This document shows positions 4,820-18,756 of a stretch of DNA of 64,000 bases, piece by piece (within the stretch, counting starts at the first letter, position 1; each line of letters opens with the position of its first letter). The stretch spans positions 930,001 through 994,000 of the forward strand of contig NC_015914.1 in NCBI RefSeq assembly GCF_000222485.1. Direction: 5' to 3'. Source of the stretch: Cyclobacterium marinum DSM 745. Lineage in GTDB: Bacteria; Bacteroidota; Bacteroidia; Cytophagales; Cyclobacteriaceae. The position numbers and the translations under genes were made by a program. The notes under the pieces were generated by a model. The model did no database searches. It saw nothing but the letters and a program-made list of their open reading frames with translations, and was not told the DNA's origin.

Positions 4820-6652
4820 CTAAACAGACTGCATTTGGGAAAGTTTATTATACAATCCTCCTTTTTGGATCAACTCATCATGAGTTCCTCTTTCCACTAT
4901 ACTTCCACCTTCAATAACCAAAATTTCATCAGCATGCTGAATGGTACTCAGACGATGTGCAATCACCAAAGAAGTACGGTTTTTCATTAAATTAGACAAA
5001 GCTTCCTGAACTAATTTCTCAGAGGCAGAATCAAGGGCAGATGTGGCTTCATCTAAAATTAAAATTTCAGGATTTTTTAATACAGCCCTAGCAATACTTA
5101 TGCGTTGCCTTTGTCCACCTGATAATTTACCTCCTCGTTCACCTATATTGGTTTCATAACCTTGCTCAAGCTCCATTATAAATTCATGAGCATTGGCAAT
5201 TTTGGCAGCTTCCTGAACTCTCTCCAAAGAAACCCCCTCCATTCCGAAGGCTATATTATTGAATACTGTATCATTGAAAAGAATAGACTCTTGTGTAACA
5301 ATTCCCATCAACCCCCTAAGGTCTGCGATGCTACAATTTCTGAGGTCAATTCCATCTATGGTTATTTCTCCTTGACTTGGATCATAAAACCTTGGCAATA
5401 AATCTGCCAAGGTAGACTTTCCTCCACCTGAAGGACCTACCAAAGCTATGGTGCGACCTTTCTCTAACTTAAAATTAACACCATTCAAAACAGCGTTTTC
5501 CTGATAGGCAAAGCCCACATTCTTAAATACTACAGCCTGTGAAAATCCTTTTAAAGCTTGCGGGGAAACTACATTTTCAATCCTAGGTTTGGTGTCAACC
5601 ACTGCGAATATTCTTCTTGCAGAAGCCAGTCCTCGTTGTATACTACTTAGCGCTCTAGAAATTTCTTTAGCAGGATTAAGTACTTGAGTAAATAAAATGA
5701 TATAGGCAATAAACTCACTGGCACTTAATGCGGAAGTATTGTTCAAAACCAAATTACCTCCGTATAATAAAATACCGGCAACTACCGAAACTCCTAAAAA
5801 TTGGCTGACGGGTGAGGCAAGCTCATTCTTCCTTGCCATAGAAACATTTACCCTAGCATAATAATCTGTTTCTGCCTCAAATTTATTTTGAACAAAACTT
5901 CTTGCTCCAAAGGCCTTGACAACCCTCATTCCTCCTATGGTTTCATCCAATATATTCACGATTCTTCCCAAAGACTCTTGACTTTGCTCCGCTTTCTTCT
6001 TTAACTTTTTGGTAATATATCCTATGATCGCTCCTGAAACCGGAATGAGTAATATCGTGAACAGCGTCAACTGATAGGACATGAAAAACAAGACAGCAAA
6101 ATAAAGAATAACTGTTACAGGCTCTTTAAAAATCACCCTTAAGGACTGAACAATACTATTCTCAACCTCCTGAATATCATTGGTCATTTTACTGATCAAA
6201 TCACCTTTTCTTTCATCAGAAAAATACCCTAAATGCATATTACTTACCGATGTGAAAATATGGACACGCATTCCTTGAATAATATCAGCCCGCACTTTGG
6301 CCAAAACTACTCCTGACAAATAGGCAAATAAATTGCTTAAAAACACCGATATCACAATAATTATACACACATATACCAAAGTCCCAAACCTCCCATACAT
6401 ATTGGCAATTTGCAGGAAATAGTAGTTGAATAAATGCATAAAATAATTAACACTTAAAGAGAATTCAGGTTTGTTGGCATACACTTGTAATTCCTCTTTC
6501 CCCACTTGTTCAAATATCACATCAAAAAGTGGTTTTAAAAGGGTGAAATTTAGCAAACCAAAAACTATAGCCAATAACGCATAGGCAATATACACAGGCA
6601 AATACCTTCGGTAAGGTCGCGCATAGGCCAAGATTCTTAAGTAAGTTTTCAT
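4820..6652 (-). CDS. MsbA-like ABC exporter (fused permease and ATPase)
   Basis: Half-transporter that should work as a homodimer in the inner membrane, exporting a lipid or drug. The 610 residues contain a six-helix type IV exporter domain (about 1-320) followed by the nucleotide-binding domain: Walker A GPSGGGKST, Q-loop, signature LSGGQRQRISIARA, Walker B ILILDEATSALD and the H-loop histidine in IAHRLSTI. The order and length match MsbA/LmrA-type proteins, and in Bacteroidota this subgroup is usually annotated as MsbA. Lipid A export is inference. It is probably the first gene of a short transcript with the small protein at 4433. Confidence 0.92.
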   Translation of the reverse strand: MKTYLRILAYARPYRRYLPVYIAYALLAIVFGLLNFTLLKPLFDVIFEQVGKEELQVYANKPEFSLSVNYFMHLFNYYFLQIANMYGRFGTLVYVCIIIVISVFLSNLFAYLSGVVLAKVRADIIQGMRVHIFTSVSNMHLGYFSDERKGDLISKMTNDIQEVENSIVQSLRVIFKEPVTVILYFAVLFFMSYQLTLFTILLIPVSGAIIGYITKKLKKKAEQSQESLGRIVNILDETIGGMRVVKAFGARSFVQNKFEAETDYYARVNVSMARKNELASPVSQFLGVSVVAGILLYGGNLVLNNTSALSASEFIAYIILFTQVLNPAKEISRALSSIQRGLASARRIFAVVDTKPRIENVVSPQALKGFSQAVVFKNVGFAYQENAVLNGVNFKLEKGRTIALVGPSGGGKSTLADLLPRFYDPSQGEITIDGIDLRNCSIADLRGLMGIVTQESILFNDTVFNNIAFGMEGVSLERVQEAAKIANAHEFIMELEQGYETNIGERGGKLSGGQRQRISIARAVLKNPEILILDEATSALDSASEKLVQEALSNLMKNRTSLVIAHRLSTIQHADEILVIEGGSIVERGTHDELIQKGGLYNKLSQMQSV

Positions 6653-6800
6653 ATAGTACTTTTAATACAAATTGTAATCAATGGTGAATATAAAGGAGGA
6701 AATTCTAATACCACGGTATCTAAAGGTAATCTCTGCCCCTAAAGAAAATAAGCAATACTATTTTGGAACATTCAATTCATTTCAAAACTAAAATGCACAC

Positions 6801-6852
6801 CCATTTTGGAAACTTTAAACGTAGCCAAGCTAAATTAAAGTTTCCAAAATGG
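6801..6852. repeat. Perfect 18-bp inverted repeat (large stem-loop)
   Basis: The arms at 6801-6818 (CCATTTTGGAAACTTTAA) and 6835-6852 are perfect reverse complements around a 16-base loop. The element lies in the 261-base gap between the Wzi-like gene and the ABC exporter, both on the minus strand. Neither side has a run of T, so it is not a standard intrinsic terminator. A weaker 8-bp stem (TTACCAAT/ATTGGTAA, 6870-6899) follows. It could be an RNA stability element or a mobile-element trace. Confidence 0.75.
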
Positions 6853-6913
6853 AACAATAATGGCGCAATTTACCAATTTTTAGATGGAAGGATTGGTAAT
6901 TAATACCAGGCAA

Positions 6914-8584
6914 TCAAAATTGTTGGTCAAATCTTGAGATATTTAAACGCAATGCTAATTGGCCGTAAGAGGTTTTTGAATTTATTCCTCCTTCGGTATT
7001 TACATGCCGCATTGTCTGAGATAAATCGACGAATAAATTGTGCCGTAACATGTATTGCAAATGCAAAGTTGCCATACTGACCTTATTTTTTTGCCCTTGC
7101 CCAATATAGTTACCATATAGGCTTGTACTTGTTTGGGTTCTATTTTTTAGGATGTCTCCACCATAGTTATCTTCTTCCGTGGGATCTGCACCATACATTT
7201 GATACATCATTGTCCCACGAAGCATCAATTTTCGCAAAGGTTGATAGGTAATTACTGCCAAAAGCTCTCTAAAATTGGCTCCTCTCGGGTGGGTAAGTGG
7301 TATTCTGTAATTGGTATAAGACTGATAGTCAAATTTTTCTTGAAAAGTAAAGGGTCTGGCTTGATTATATTCCAACTGAAAGTCAAGGTTATCTATGCCA
7401 GCTACATCAATGTATTTATATCCTAACTGAACTCCATGTTTGTTTCTACTGGAACCACTTTCTGTAATGTGAAAAAACTCATCGAAAACAAATTCATCAA
7501 GAACAAATTGTCCATAAAGTTGCATCCCCTTGCCCAAATTCCATTTCATGTCTGTTCCGAGCATAACCTTATCTGGCGTTCCTAATTGGTGCTCTACCCA
7601 TCGATAAAAAATCAAGGGGTTGAAATAATTCCAGTTTGCTTTATCAGCCATCACCGATTCAAATACTCCTAGATTGAATCGCCTCCCCAAATTAACCCCT
7701 AACCTGTGGAAAGAAAACCACTTTTGGGGATACCTTCCATCTGTAGGAACACCTCTAGAAGTGATAATATCCGCTGTCATTTGCCCCCATAAATTGGTGA
7801 AATCTACCTTTCCTATCTTGGTATTGACTTTTACAAACACAAAGGGGTTTGAAAAATCAGATAATATAAAAGACCTTAAGCCCTCTCCAATAAAATGGCT
7901 ATCATGCCCCATTTGAATGTTTACATGTTTTGTGGCTGAAAAGGTAATGTGGCCCCGTGCCGAGAAGAAACTATAGCCCCCGTCACCATATCGTTTCCAA
8001 AAACCTTGCCCCGGAATGGCCCCATGATTCCCTACATATTCATTTACCCAGGAAGGAAACATCAAGTCCGTGGTCGCCAGCATGGTATAAAACCCTATTT
8101 TGTCATCAATACTTCCATGTAAGGCCAGACCTCTTGTATTTCGAAAAGGCATCTGATCATTATCGAGTTCTGCCCCTCCTTGTAAATACAAGACAGGATT
8201 TAAGTGCACATCAAAATCTTCACTCTTATAACCGTAAAAATCTGAAGGTCTTTTATAAATATACTTACCTATGGAACGCTTAGAAAGCGCCAATGAATCA
8301 GTGGCATACTCCCAGTTATCTTGCAATAAATAATTGAGGTTAAACTCATCTTTTTTGTTCAAGTAGCCGGCCGTTTTTTTGTATTCCTCGAGGTACTGCA
8401 CCACCTCGTCCCTTCTGTAAGGTTTGCTACCCGTATGGAAAGAACCGTTGAAAGCTCCATTTTTTATTTCGTACCTTTCTAAAAGAGAATAGTAATCCCT
8501 ATTAAACGGCAAATACGGACTTTGCGCCAAAACCTCCGAGACTAAGGAGCCTGTAAACAATAAAAAAAGAAAAAAGTACTTCAT
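6914..8584 (-). CDS. Capsule assembly Wzi family outer-membrane protein
   Basis: Predicted outer-membrane beta-barrel protein related to Wzi, which in Gram-negatives helps anchor capsule or exopolysaccharide at the surface. The 556 residues begin with a signal peptide (MKYFFLFLLFTGSLVSEVLA, cleavage before QSPYLPFNRDYY). The rest is a long chain of alternating amphipathic strands rich in Tyr, Phe and Gly, ending in an aromatic outer-membrane barrel terminus (RLNISRFDQQF). Wzi-family motifs seen include the helix bundle before the barrel and conserved GHDSHFIGEGLRS. No capsule synthesis genes adjoin it. It may share function with the exporter downstream, though they are separated by 261 bases containing strong stem-loops. 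Confidence 0.8.
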   Translation of the reverse strand: MKYFFLFLLFTGSLVSEVLAQSPYLPFNRDYYSLLERYEIKNGAFNGSFHTGSKPYRRDEVVQYLEEYKKTAGYLNKKDEFNLNYLLQDNWEYATDSLALSKRSIGKYIYKRPSDFYGYKSEDFDVHLNPVLYLQGGAELDNDQMPFRNTRGLALHGSIDDKIGFYTMLATTDLMFPSWVNEYVGNHGAIPGQGFWKRYGDGGYSFFSARGHITFSATKHVNIQMGHDSHFIGEGLRSFILSDFSNPFVFVKVNTKIGKVDFTNLWGQMTADIITSRGVPTDGRYPQKWFSFHRLGVNLGRRFNLGVFESVMADKANWNYFNPLIFYRWVEHQLGTPDKVMLGTDMKWNLGKGMQLYGQFVLDEFVFDEFFHITESGSSRNKHGVQLGYKYIDVAGIDNLDFQLEYNQARPFTFQEKFDYQSYTNYRIPLTHPRGANFRELLAVITYQPLRKLMLRGTMMYQMYGADPTEEDNYGGDILKNRTQTSTSLYGNYIGQGQKNKVSMATLHLQYMLRHNLFVDLSQTMRHVNTEGGINSKTSYGQLALRLNISRFDQQF

Positions 8585-17162: not shown

Positions 17163-17723
17163 TTACCAGGTTCTAGGCAGGTCTTTATTACTATCATCTA
17201 TCCCTGAGGAAGAAGTATCAGTATAGGTTCTCACTTGGGTTTTTGCAATTGGTTTTACAGGCACTTCTTTTTTCTTTTCAGCCTTTTCGTCAAGCATTGA
17301 GTAAAGCTCTTCTCTGCTCACTGAATTTATTTTGCTGGATTTGGAAGCTTCTTCTACTTCTTTTGCATCCACCACCTGTACACCGCTATTGATTTGGGCA
17401 CCTTTGTGAATATGAATAGAGCTGGTTGTGATATTTCCAGACACCTTGGCATTTGAATAAATGGTTGTATCCCCTTTGATGTATAGGTCTCCCACTACCT
17501 CTCCGTTGATACTTATTTCTTCAGCAATGATATCTCCGGTAATGGAAGCTTTTTCTCCAACCACCACTTTTTTATCTGTTCGAATACTGCCTACGAGTAT
17601 TCCATCTGCTCTGATGTCGCTTTTGGAAATAATATCACCTGTAAGTTCAAATCCCATTGAAAGGACAGTCACTTTACCTACATTGGCTTCTTTATTCTGT
17701 TGCTTGTTGGATCCAAATTTCAT
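17163..17723 (-). CDS. Bactofilin (second copy), partner of actin-like protein
   Basis: Polymer-forming cytoskeletal protein expected to lie under the inner membrane. The 186 residues have a bactofilin beta-helix domain at about residues 17-120, visible as repeated strands (LTGDIISKSDI, GSIRTDKKVVVGEKASITGDI, GNITTSSIHIHKG). A charged, probably disordered tail of about 65 residues follows, including SVSREELYSMLDEKAEKKK and ending in PRTW. This tail is absent from the bactofilin at 2250. The gene begins four bases after the actin-like gene on the same strand, so the two proteins are almost certainly co-produced. A joint filament system is inference. Confidence 0.92.
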   Translation of the reverse strand: MKFGSNKQQNKEANVGKVTVLSMGFELTGDIISKSDIRADGILVGSIRTDKKVVVGEKASITGDIIAEEISINGEVVGDLYIKGDTTIYSNAKVSGNITTSSIHIHKGAQINSGVQVVDAKEVEEASKSSKINSVSREELYSMLDEKAEKKKEVPVKPIAKTQVRTYTDTSSSGIDDSNKDLPRTW

Positions 17724-17727
17724 ATTA

Positions 17728-18756
17728 TCATTCTCCTTTTTCTTGTTTAAAAGTAGTTAATATCGTGGAACTATTCCCTAAATCAAGACCTACTGCTTTG
17801 TCTTTGGCACCGGCATTTATAGCCAAACTATTGAAACAATACCCTATAGATGCCATCTGCTCAGGTGATTCAGGAACATGCACATTTAACAACCCATCAA
17901 ACTCAGCTTTAAATAAATCGACAAGTTCACTGTAATTGGCCCCGCCTCCGGCTAGGTATATGTCTGCAGATTTTGCGAAATCGCTATCAGAAAAGGCCTT
18001 TCTGAGGGAAGGGGAAATTACATCGTTATAGTACTGCTCTATTACTTGTTTCCTCAATTCCTTTAAGTCTAAACGCTTTCTGTTTAGGATTATTGAGCCT
18101 TCACTAAAATATTGGTCTATTTGATGTTCTGTTTTTAGATCTAAATAGTTGTCTTTTTGCAACTCACGGGTAATAAGGTTGATGGCGTACCTTAAGCCAA
18201 AAGTAGAAACACTTGACCTTTGAACCAAACCACCTTCTGTACTCAAAATGGCTTCCATGGTACCATACCCCAAACTGATCATGAAAAAGTTTTTGGGCGC
18301 ATCACTGTAAAGCTGTCTTACTGCCATACTACATCCAACAACCTCAGGAATAACAGCCACTCTGTCAACTTCAACCGCCATCTTTTTCTTACCGCCACCA
18401 CCAAAAGTTTGAGTATCGTATTCAATTATATGCTCATTTTCTAATAATCTGTAAGCATTTTCTTTAAACACCTGAAAAGTCGAAAAAGGAAAACCTGTTG
18501 TAACAGTAATAGGACTACCCAGTTTTTGAGAGGCTAATAATAAGCCTGCTTTTAAAAAGATCCTATAATCATTTTCATCAGGCGAACTGTTAATATTTCT
18601 ATGAGGAGATGTTCCTTCGGATAAAGCCAAATCCCCAACCAAATAACCTATATTATCGTGATATATTTTAAGCCCTGAAACTAAATCTCTCGCTACATTT
18701 CTAAGTTCAAGATTACTACTTTCCAATACACTTGGGTACTTTATTACTTCTATCAT
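17728..18756 (-). CDS. Actin/ParM-like ATPase, apparently circularly permuted
   Basis: Member of the actin/Hsp70 ATPase superfamily, closest in pattern to ParM/StbA-like proteins. In order along 342 residues: YPSVL (7-11) and IGYLVGDLAL (36-45), which normally follow phosphate-1; TVTTGFP (84-90); IPEVVG (136-141); phosphate-2-like FMISLGYGTMEAI (158-170), with Ser where Asp is usual; adenosine motif IYLAGGGANY (266-275); and the final helix PEQMASIGYCFNSL (298-311). The phosphate-1 hairpin AVGLDLGNSSTIL appears only after that, at 321-333. An in-frame stop lies a few codons upstream of the ATG, so no normal N-terminus is missing. It forms an operon with the bactofilin downstream. The family call is good; the permutation is a reading of motif order, not a structure. 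Confidence 0.82.
   Translation of the reverse strand: MIEVIKYPSVLESSNLELRNVARDLVSGLKIYHDNIGYLVGDLALSEGTSPHRNINSSPDENDYRIFLKAGLLLASQKLGSPITVTTGFPFSTFQVFKENAYRLLENEHIIEYDTQTFGGGGKKKMAVEVDRVAVIPEVVGCSMAVRQLYSDAPKNFFMISLGYGTMEAILSTEGGLVQRSSVSTFGLRYAINLITRELQKDNYLDLKTEHQIDQYFSEGSIILNRKRLDLKELRKQVIEQYYNDVISPSLRKAFSDSDFAKSADIYLAGGGANYSELVDLFKAEFDGLLNVHVPESPEQMASIGYCFNSLAINAGAKDKAVGLDLGNSSTILTTFKQEKGE

Follow-up and report, generated by a model that had tools for sequence, protein, structure and literature searches.

Must the strands of the actin fold follow the order found in every member described so far? The question is raised by one open reading frame of Cyclobacterium marinum DSM 745, on the minus strand at 17728-18756 of the window (the whole 64,000-nucleotide stretch analysed; contig NC_015914.1, positions 930,001 to 994,000). 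The actin/Hsp70/sugar-kinase fold is among the oldest ATPase folds and, to our knowledge, its strand order is identical in all described members. The original prediction, made from the sequence alone, had placed the phosphate-1 hairpin of this protein near the C-terminus, and translation of the reading frame finds AVGLDLGNSSTIL at residues 321-333 of 342, as claimed. The frame starts with an ATG. An in-frame TAA had also been noted nine codons upstream; such a stop is present, although the nearest is 8 codons off. Four TAA codons lie in frame within 17 codons upstream of the ATG, and the phosphate-1 motif is absent from the 30 upstream codons read.

This protein of 342 residues has the actin fold in a naturally circularly permuted form, and belongs to the ParM/Alp branch. 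The permutation is supported by rotated-profile tests, by structure prediction with sequential structural alignment, and by the family-wide order of the motifs, and these lines all agree. Against the Pfam family ALP_N (cut-off 26.3 bits), the native protein scored 43.6 bits and matched profile positions 19-148; when residues 317-342 were moved to the front, the match extended over positions 1-148 and reached 52.0 bits. ALP_N was above its gathering cut-off in 6 of the 7 native members scanned, each time from profile positions 17-21; no Pfam family was matched by P0118, one of these seven. The canonical reference consisted of 115 ParM/Alp proteins of at least 265 residues, which were found with a Persephonella plasmid protein. 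In 89 of the 115, a simple pattern located the motif no more than 20 residues from the start. The other 26, inspected by eye, mostly have a variant motif (e.g. CDLGFSSLKW) or a longer N-terminus; none of them has the motif near the end, and in P0229 and P0233 it was not seen in the 20 residues printed.

Profile-profile alignment (hhalign) of the native family with this reference scored 120.8, pairing family columns 4-314 with reference columns 29-304. With the C-terminal 26 residues placed first (cut after 316), the score rose to 139.4. In a scan of cut points the maximum was 139.6, at cuts 310-320, and the alignment then began at reference column 8-11; the runner-up (132.3, cut 300) moves the hairpin to the front too. 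When the 26 moved columns were shuffled 200 times, the mean was 121.6 (standard deviation 1.8) and the maximum 128.2, so that none of the 200 shuffles reached 139.4. Rotation also raised the match to PHROG 691, from 68.7 to 74.5 bits. The control with a reversed hairpin rose as well, to 71.4 bits; it is a poor control because GLDLG reads identically backwards, and it was replaced by the hhalign scan and the shuffles.

The AlphaFold2 (AF2) model of the window protein has the overall fold of actin, with a predicted local distance difference test (pLDDT) score of 90.8 and a predicted template modelling score of 0.90. Two members with about 50% identity were modelled and structurally aligned, the second being the tailed homologue P0090. 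The topology was compared with that of ParM, as the original prediction had proposed. Residues 1-319 were aligned sequentially onto ParM residues 23-363, and the hairpin was left over. The new termini fall in subdomain IA, where they separate its second strand from its third, and the hairpin that used to be N-terminal comes after the last helix. Folded in this way, residues 321-336 would lie beside the nucleotide.

The order of the motifs is conserved among homologues in other Bacteroidota. A search of 5.8 billion proteins identified 426 relatives, and GxDxG follows the last helix in 118 of the best 120 of these; the exceptions are the partial protein P0094 and P0092, which stops short in unrelated residues. 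In a further listing the best 120 of 448 were examined. A genome scan confirmed 158 relatives, of which 80 loci were kept; the C-terminal motif was found in all 81 loci when the window's own was added. The 80 loci span Cyclobacteriaceae, Roseivirga, Sphingobacteriaceae, Chitinophagaceae, Bacteroidales, Balneolaceae and Melioribacteraceae, among others, and include ten Cyclobacterium loci with 94 to 100% identity (L002-L011). In total, 209 sequences (186 distinct) were pooled and searched in two regions, past residue 280 and over residues 1 to 60. The motif lies past residue 280 in 207 of them, and both exceptions lack the protein end. A phosphate-1 motif in the first 60 residues, which would have told against the permutation, was found in 0 of the 209.

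Across the phylum, a profile search detected the gene in 24 of 395 genomes, two with two copies and one with a contig-end fragment only. The 24 phylum-wide places counted here are all those outside the window's genome except the fragment, and at least three (L175, L178, L183) duplicate records of the 80. All 24 have the C-terminal motif. Searching 296 genomes of the phylum with PF17989 gave 11 matches, each starting at profile positions 16-21; this search is incomplete, as it missed the window protein itself (43.6 bits), and it cannot show that Alps of canonical order are absent from the phylum. Some members carry a tail: they have about 430 residues, with about 100 residues past the motif. 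Those at L038, L041 and L051 (about 6001-7299) are permuted actins of 431-432 residues with a variable linker and similar ends (KFLKTGMW, KFLISGTW). Each sits downstream of a gene beginning LGILREGK.

The original prediction had overlooked both a bactofilin partner and altered catalytic residues. In 53 of the 80 loci a bactofilin lies downstream of the permuted actin, within 200 nucleotides and on the same strand, as it does in the window; many of these paired loci are near-copies from Cyclobacterium and Roseivirga. Among the 24 phylum-wide places, 13 have a bactofilin open frame within 420 nucleotides downstream, one has a bactofilin about 1.0 kb downstream (L163), and three have one about 1.2 kb downstream. 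The pair was also mapped on a tree of 52 members (33 paired rows; 28 presumed near-copies excluded by hand; arbitrary root). The pairing label changes 4 times on this tree, compared with 15.8 times in shuffles. On it the three tailed members cluster together in a single supported group, set among paired members.

The tails of the partner bactofilins are dissimilar, and their ends are alike: PRTW, GSVAW, TGWW, QRWW, GGGWI and DGWF. The count of termini covers 53 partners: it takes in the pair of the window itself and omits the contig-truncated L067. Of these 53 partners, 50 end in an aromatic residue, and all 53 have one among the last two. Tryptophan is among the last two in 52, the exception being L037, which ends NGFF; it is still there in 10 of 11 partners after the actins were collapsed at 80% identity or more. 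The controls were 51 distinct Bacteroidota bactofilins that are not directly beside the gene. None of the 51 has an aromatic last residue, and 2 have an aromatic residue among the last two. These controls include three same-genome paralogues; one of the 51, L152, has a permuted actin 1.2 kb upstream of it, and the other 50 control loci hold none. The 13 near bactofilins of the phylum-wide set end in tryptophan (11) or phenylalanine (2), L175 being the same record as L024. At 1.0 kb, the L163 bactofilin ends LFF; at 1.2 kb, all three have non-aromatic ends. At three loci there is no adjacent bactofilin, and the actin itself has a long tail ending GMW or GTW. Therefore, the terminus counts, the controls and the tailed actins show that the aromatic end accompanies the permuted actin.

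Several other arrangements were seen around the gene. A bactofilin is also found upstream in 4 of the 53 paired loci (L040, L045, L047, L049), so that the permuted actin has bactofilins on both sides; the terminal tryptophan is absent from all four upstream ones, and their ends are not aromatic. Bactofilins without an aromatic end lie about 1.2 kb downstream at L161, L177, L178 and L080, and at L080 a repeat-rich gene that looks like a tetratricopeptide repeat protein stands between permuted actin and bactofilin. The solo actins of L043, L044, L054-L062, L065 and L068 (Bacteroidales, mostly from rumen or gut) have no bactofilin beside them, and have similar ends of their own, such as NLRFK. 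At L070 and L079 a similar small, secreted-looking reading frame of about 140 residues lies downstream of a solo permuted actin. The window contains a second bactofilin at 2250-2711 on the minus strand (153 residues, terminal residue not aromatic). The gene upstream of it may encode a ComM-type Mg chelatase.

Bactofilins are polymers that bind no nucleotide, and their positioning is poorly understood. The permuted actin probably binds ATP and acts as the organiser of a dedicated bactofilin polymer. The two genes are probably co-expressed, and the two proteins would form one scaffold. The aromatic hook at the end of the variable bactofilin tail may dock on the permuted actin, or else on a third partner shared by the two proteins, and the ATP state of the actin would govern where the bactofilin polymer is assembled. 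Such a scaffold, with a slowly hydrolysing actin in the ATP state and ATP-controlled assembly through the hook, is in our judgement fairly probable. A more specific form, in which the C-terminal hook lets a permuted actin locked in the ATP state recruit or nucleate the nucleotide-free bactofilin polymer, as a two-component cytoskeleton of the Bacteroidota and close relatives, is tentative, and we consider it possible rather than probable. The role would most likely be in cell shape or envelope organisation. The permutation, its conservation, the gene pair and the aromatic terminus come from computation; ATP binding, slow hydrolysis, contact between the two proteins and the part played in shape are inferred. 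Genera of straight rods, such as Roseivirga and Sphingobacterium, also have the pair; hence, cell shape was not used as support. The genome of Cyclobacterium qasimii, described as horseshoe-shaped in the consulted part of PMC3744694, carries the pair too (L003).

Some observations weigh against this proposal. No bactofilin lies within 200 nucleotides in 27 of the 80 loci, each with at least 721 bases available downstream, and 7 of the 24 phylum-wide places have none; the partnership is therefore not obligatory. Moreover, AF2 does not confidently dock the tail of P0090 on its own actin (helix 420-428, pLDDT blocks of 49-56, last three residues below 50). This last point also fits an alternative that we regard as rather unlikely, in which the bactofilin hook does not bind the actin, and both proteins bind a third partner through a hook that either may carry. 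The three loci of the tailed lineage, with the terminal tryptophan on the actin and no bactofilin adjacent, are consistent with it. So is the lone bactofilin found in each of the tailed-actin genomes (L145, L147, L149), which has a non-aromatic end; these genomes are metagenome-assembled and may be incomplete. However, no third gene recurs: no other neighbour within 6 kb is shared by more than 5 of 19 representative paired loci. Such a partner might be encoded elsewhere.

The nucleotide chemistry of the proposed scaffold can be judged from the active site residues. The phosphate-1 Asp325, the connect-1 Glu138 and the adenosine glycines G270 and G271 do not vary in any of the 63 aligned members; because of this, the fold and the ATP site have probably been rebuilt intact. 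A simple pattern detected the connect-1 Glu in 98 of 128 members and left 30 unmatched; in the canonical set it detected the corresponding Gln in 99 of the 115 proteins and left 16 unmatched. The phosphate-2 motif is altered. Ser161 and Glu168 are present in all 63 aligned members, and the same Ser and Glu in all 209 sequences (188 by pattern, 21 by eye), whereas the first position is Asp in 112 of the 115 canonical proteins, the other three being unmatched. Judging by actin and ParM, hydrolysis should be slower once the phosphate-2 Asp is lost. With Ser in place of this Asp in every member, tight ATP binding and slow or altered hydrolysis would be expected, which would make for a long-lived ATP-state protein rather than a ParM filament of fast turnover. 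The same two replacements, Asp to Ser and Asp to Glu throughout the family, might instead indicate a pseudo-enzyme scaffold that has lost its ATPase function and keeps the C-terminal hairpin as a purely structural element. This is improbable, since the invariance of Asp325, Glu138 and G270-G271 is hard to explain without nucleotide binding.

Where sources give the permuted actin a name, it is 'ParM/StbA family protein', 'plasmid segregation protein ParM', hypothetical, or one of a few others. Taken at their word, the protein would be a dynamic ParM-like filament that segregates DNA, and the permutation would be neutral. The closest solved relatives are indeed ParMs, one of them chromosomal, and Ta0583, and PHROG 691 is annotated as 'partition protein'. 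Nevertheless, this reading is very unlikely. The gene is chromosomal and single copy in a genome of one 6,221,273-base contig; none of 72,556 plasmid records covers 80% of the protein, the 4 weak plasmid matches being at most 31.8% identical; no relative was confirmed among 17 pattern matches in viral contigs; the phosphate-2 Asp is absent from 209 of 209 sequences; and the recurrent neighbour is a bactofilin. A plasmid or phage origin was likewise rejected, the plasmid matches being joined by 2 weak phage records (one phage twice), none covering 80%. A defence system was rejected too, with no PADLOC match. That the protein is a gene-calling, frameshift or assembly artefact, with a lost N-terminus and a chance GxDxG at its end, can be dismissed: no point in its support was found, and the upstream in-frame stops, the order kept in 207 of 209 sequences, the rotation and shuffle tests, and two models with a confident core all contradict it.

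Table. Features of the permuted actin gene and of its bactofilin partner in the window.
Feature	Position	Strand	Basis
Circularly permuted actin-like protein, 342 aa	17728..18756	-	Open reading frame; Pfam ALP_N; AF2; single copy in this genome
Connect-1 PE, residues 137-138 (PQ in canonical set)	18343..18348	-	Alignment
Phosphate-2 SLGYGTME, residues 161-168; Ser and Glu stand for the first and second Asp	18253..18276	-	Alignment
Adenosine motif AGGGA, residues 269-273	17938..17952	-	G270 and G271 invariant (63/63)
Phosphate-1 hairpin displaced to C-terminus, residues 321-336	17749..17796	-	AF2 strands E321-326 and E330-336; aligns with canonical Alp N-terminus when rotated
Partner bactofilin, 186 aa, starting 4 nt after the actin stop	17163..17723	-	PF04519, 78.8 bits (cut-off 27.9); adjacency conserved
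C-terminal PRTW of partner bactofilin (aromatic terminus)	17166..17177	-	Translation

If these conclusions hold, a widely conserved natural permutant would mean that strand order is not essential to the actin fold. The permutant would also offer a ready-made control for studying the way in which ATP is coupled to domain closure by the hairpin, and its family would link actin-like proteins to bactofilins; the database names conceal both the permutation and this link. No report of a permuted actin fold was found in the open-licence papers searched, which does not establish its absence from print. The searched part of PMC7203096 (300,000 of 769,434 characters) holds no passage on circular permutation. 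Permuted ferredoxin folds are mentioned in the consulted part of PMC4471445.

Compared with known systems, the permuted actin is closest to the ParM/Alp proteins (PF17989; Dh-cParM1, 8x1i; pCBH ParM, 6izr; Alp7A, 5ec0), with which it shares the fold over residues 1-319 and the adenosine motif. Unlike them, it has the phosphate-1 hairpin at the C-terminus and Ser for the phosphate-2 Asp, and it is chromosomal and often paired with a bactofilin. A profile search of the PDB gave 6 matches at E of 1 or below, of which only Dh-cParM1 (E 0.0016) was convincing; a sequence search with the single protein gave nothing useful. This closest solved relative is described in a 2025 paper on chromosome-encoded ParMs (PMC12270681), whose main text contains neither 'bacteroid' nor 'permut'.

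The best Foldseek E-value (1.2e-14) was obtained with the archaeal actin homologue Ta0583 (2fsk, 2fsj), which has the canonical order and was aligned only from its residue 19 onward. The MreB-like_C family (PF21522), to which Ta0583 belongs, was matched at E of 1 or below in 5 of 7 native members, and above its cut-off only in P0019. The MreB profile MreB_Mbl was not listed when the native protein of the window was scanned at E 10, and stayed below its cut-off of 27 in P0045 (17.8 bits) and P0116 (16.9 bits); the NCBIfam MreB model gave E 0.076 with the window protein. The Cyclobacterium genome encodes a separate MreB (422 bits), and the permuted actin is thus an additional actin-like protein. 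The partner matches the bactofilins (PF04519), but has an aromatic last residue and an adjoining actin. We know of no permutation like that of the window protein in FtsA or PilM. In both of these actin-fold adaptors a short terminal peptide of the partner is bound, the tail of FtsZ and a peptide of PilN, respectively, and FtsA-FtsZ and PilM-PilN provide the model for the proposed aromatic hook.
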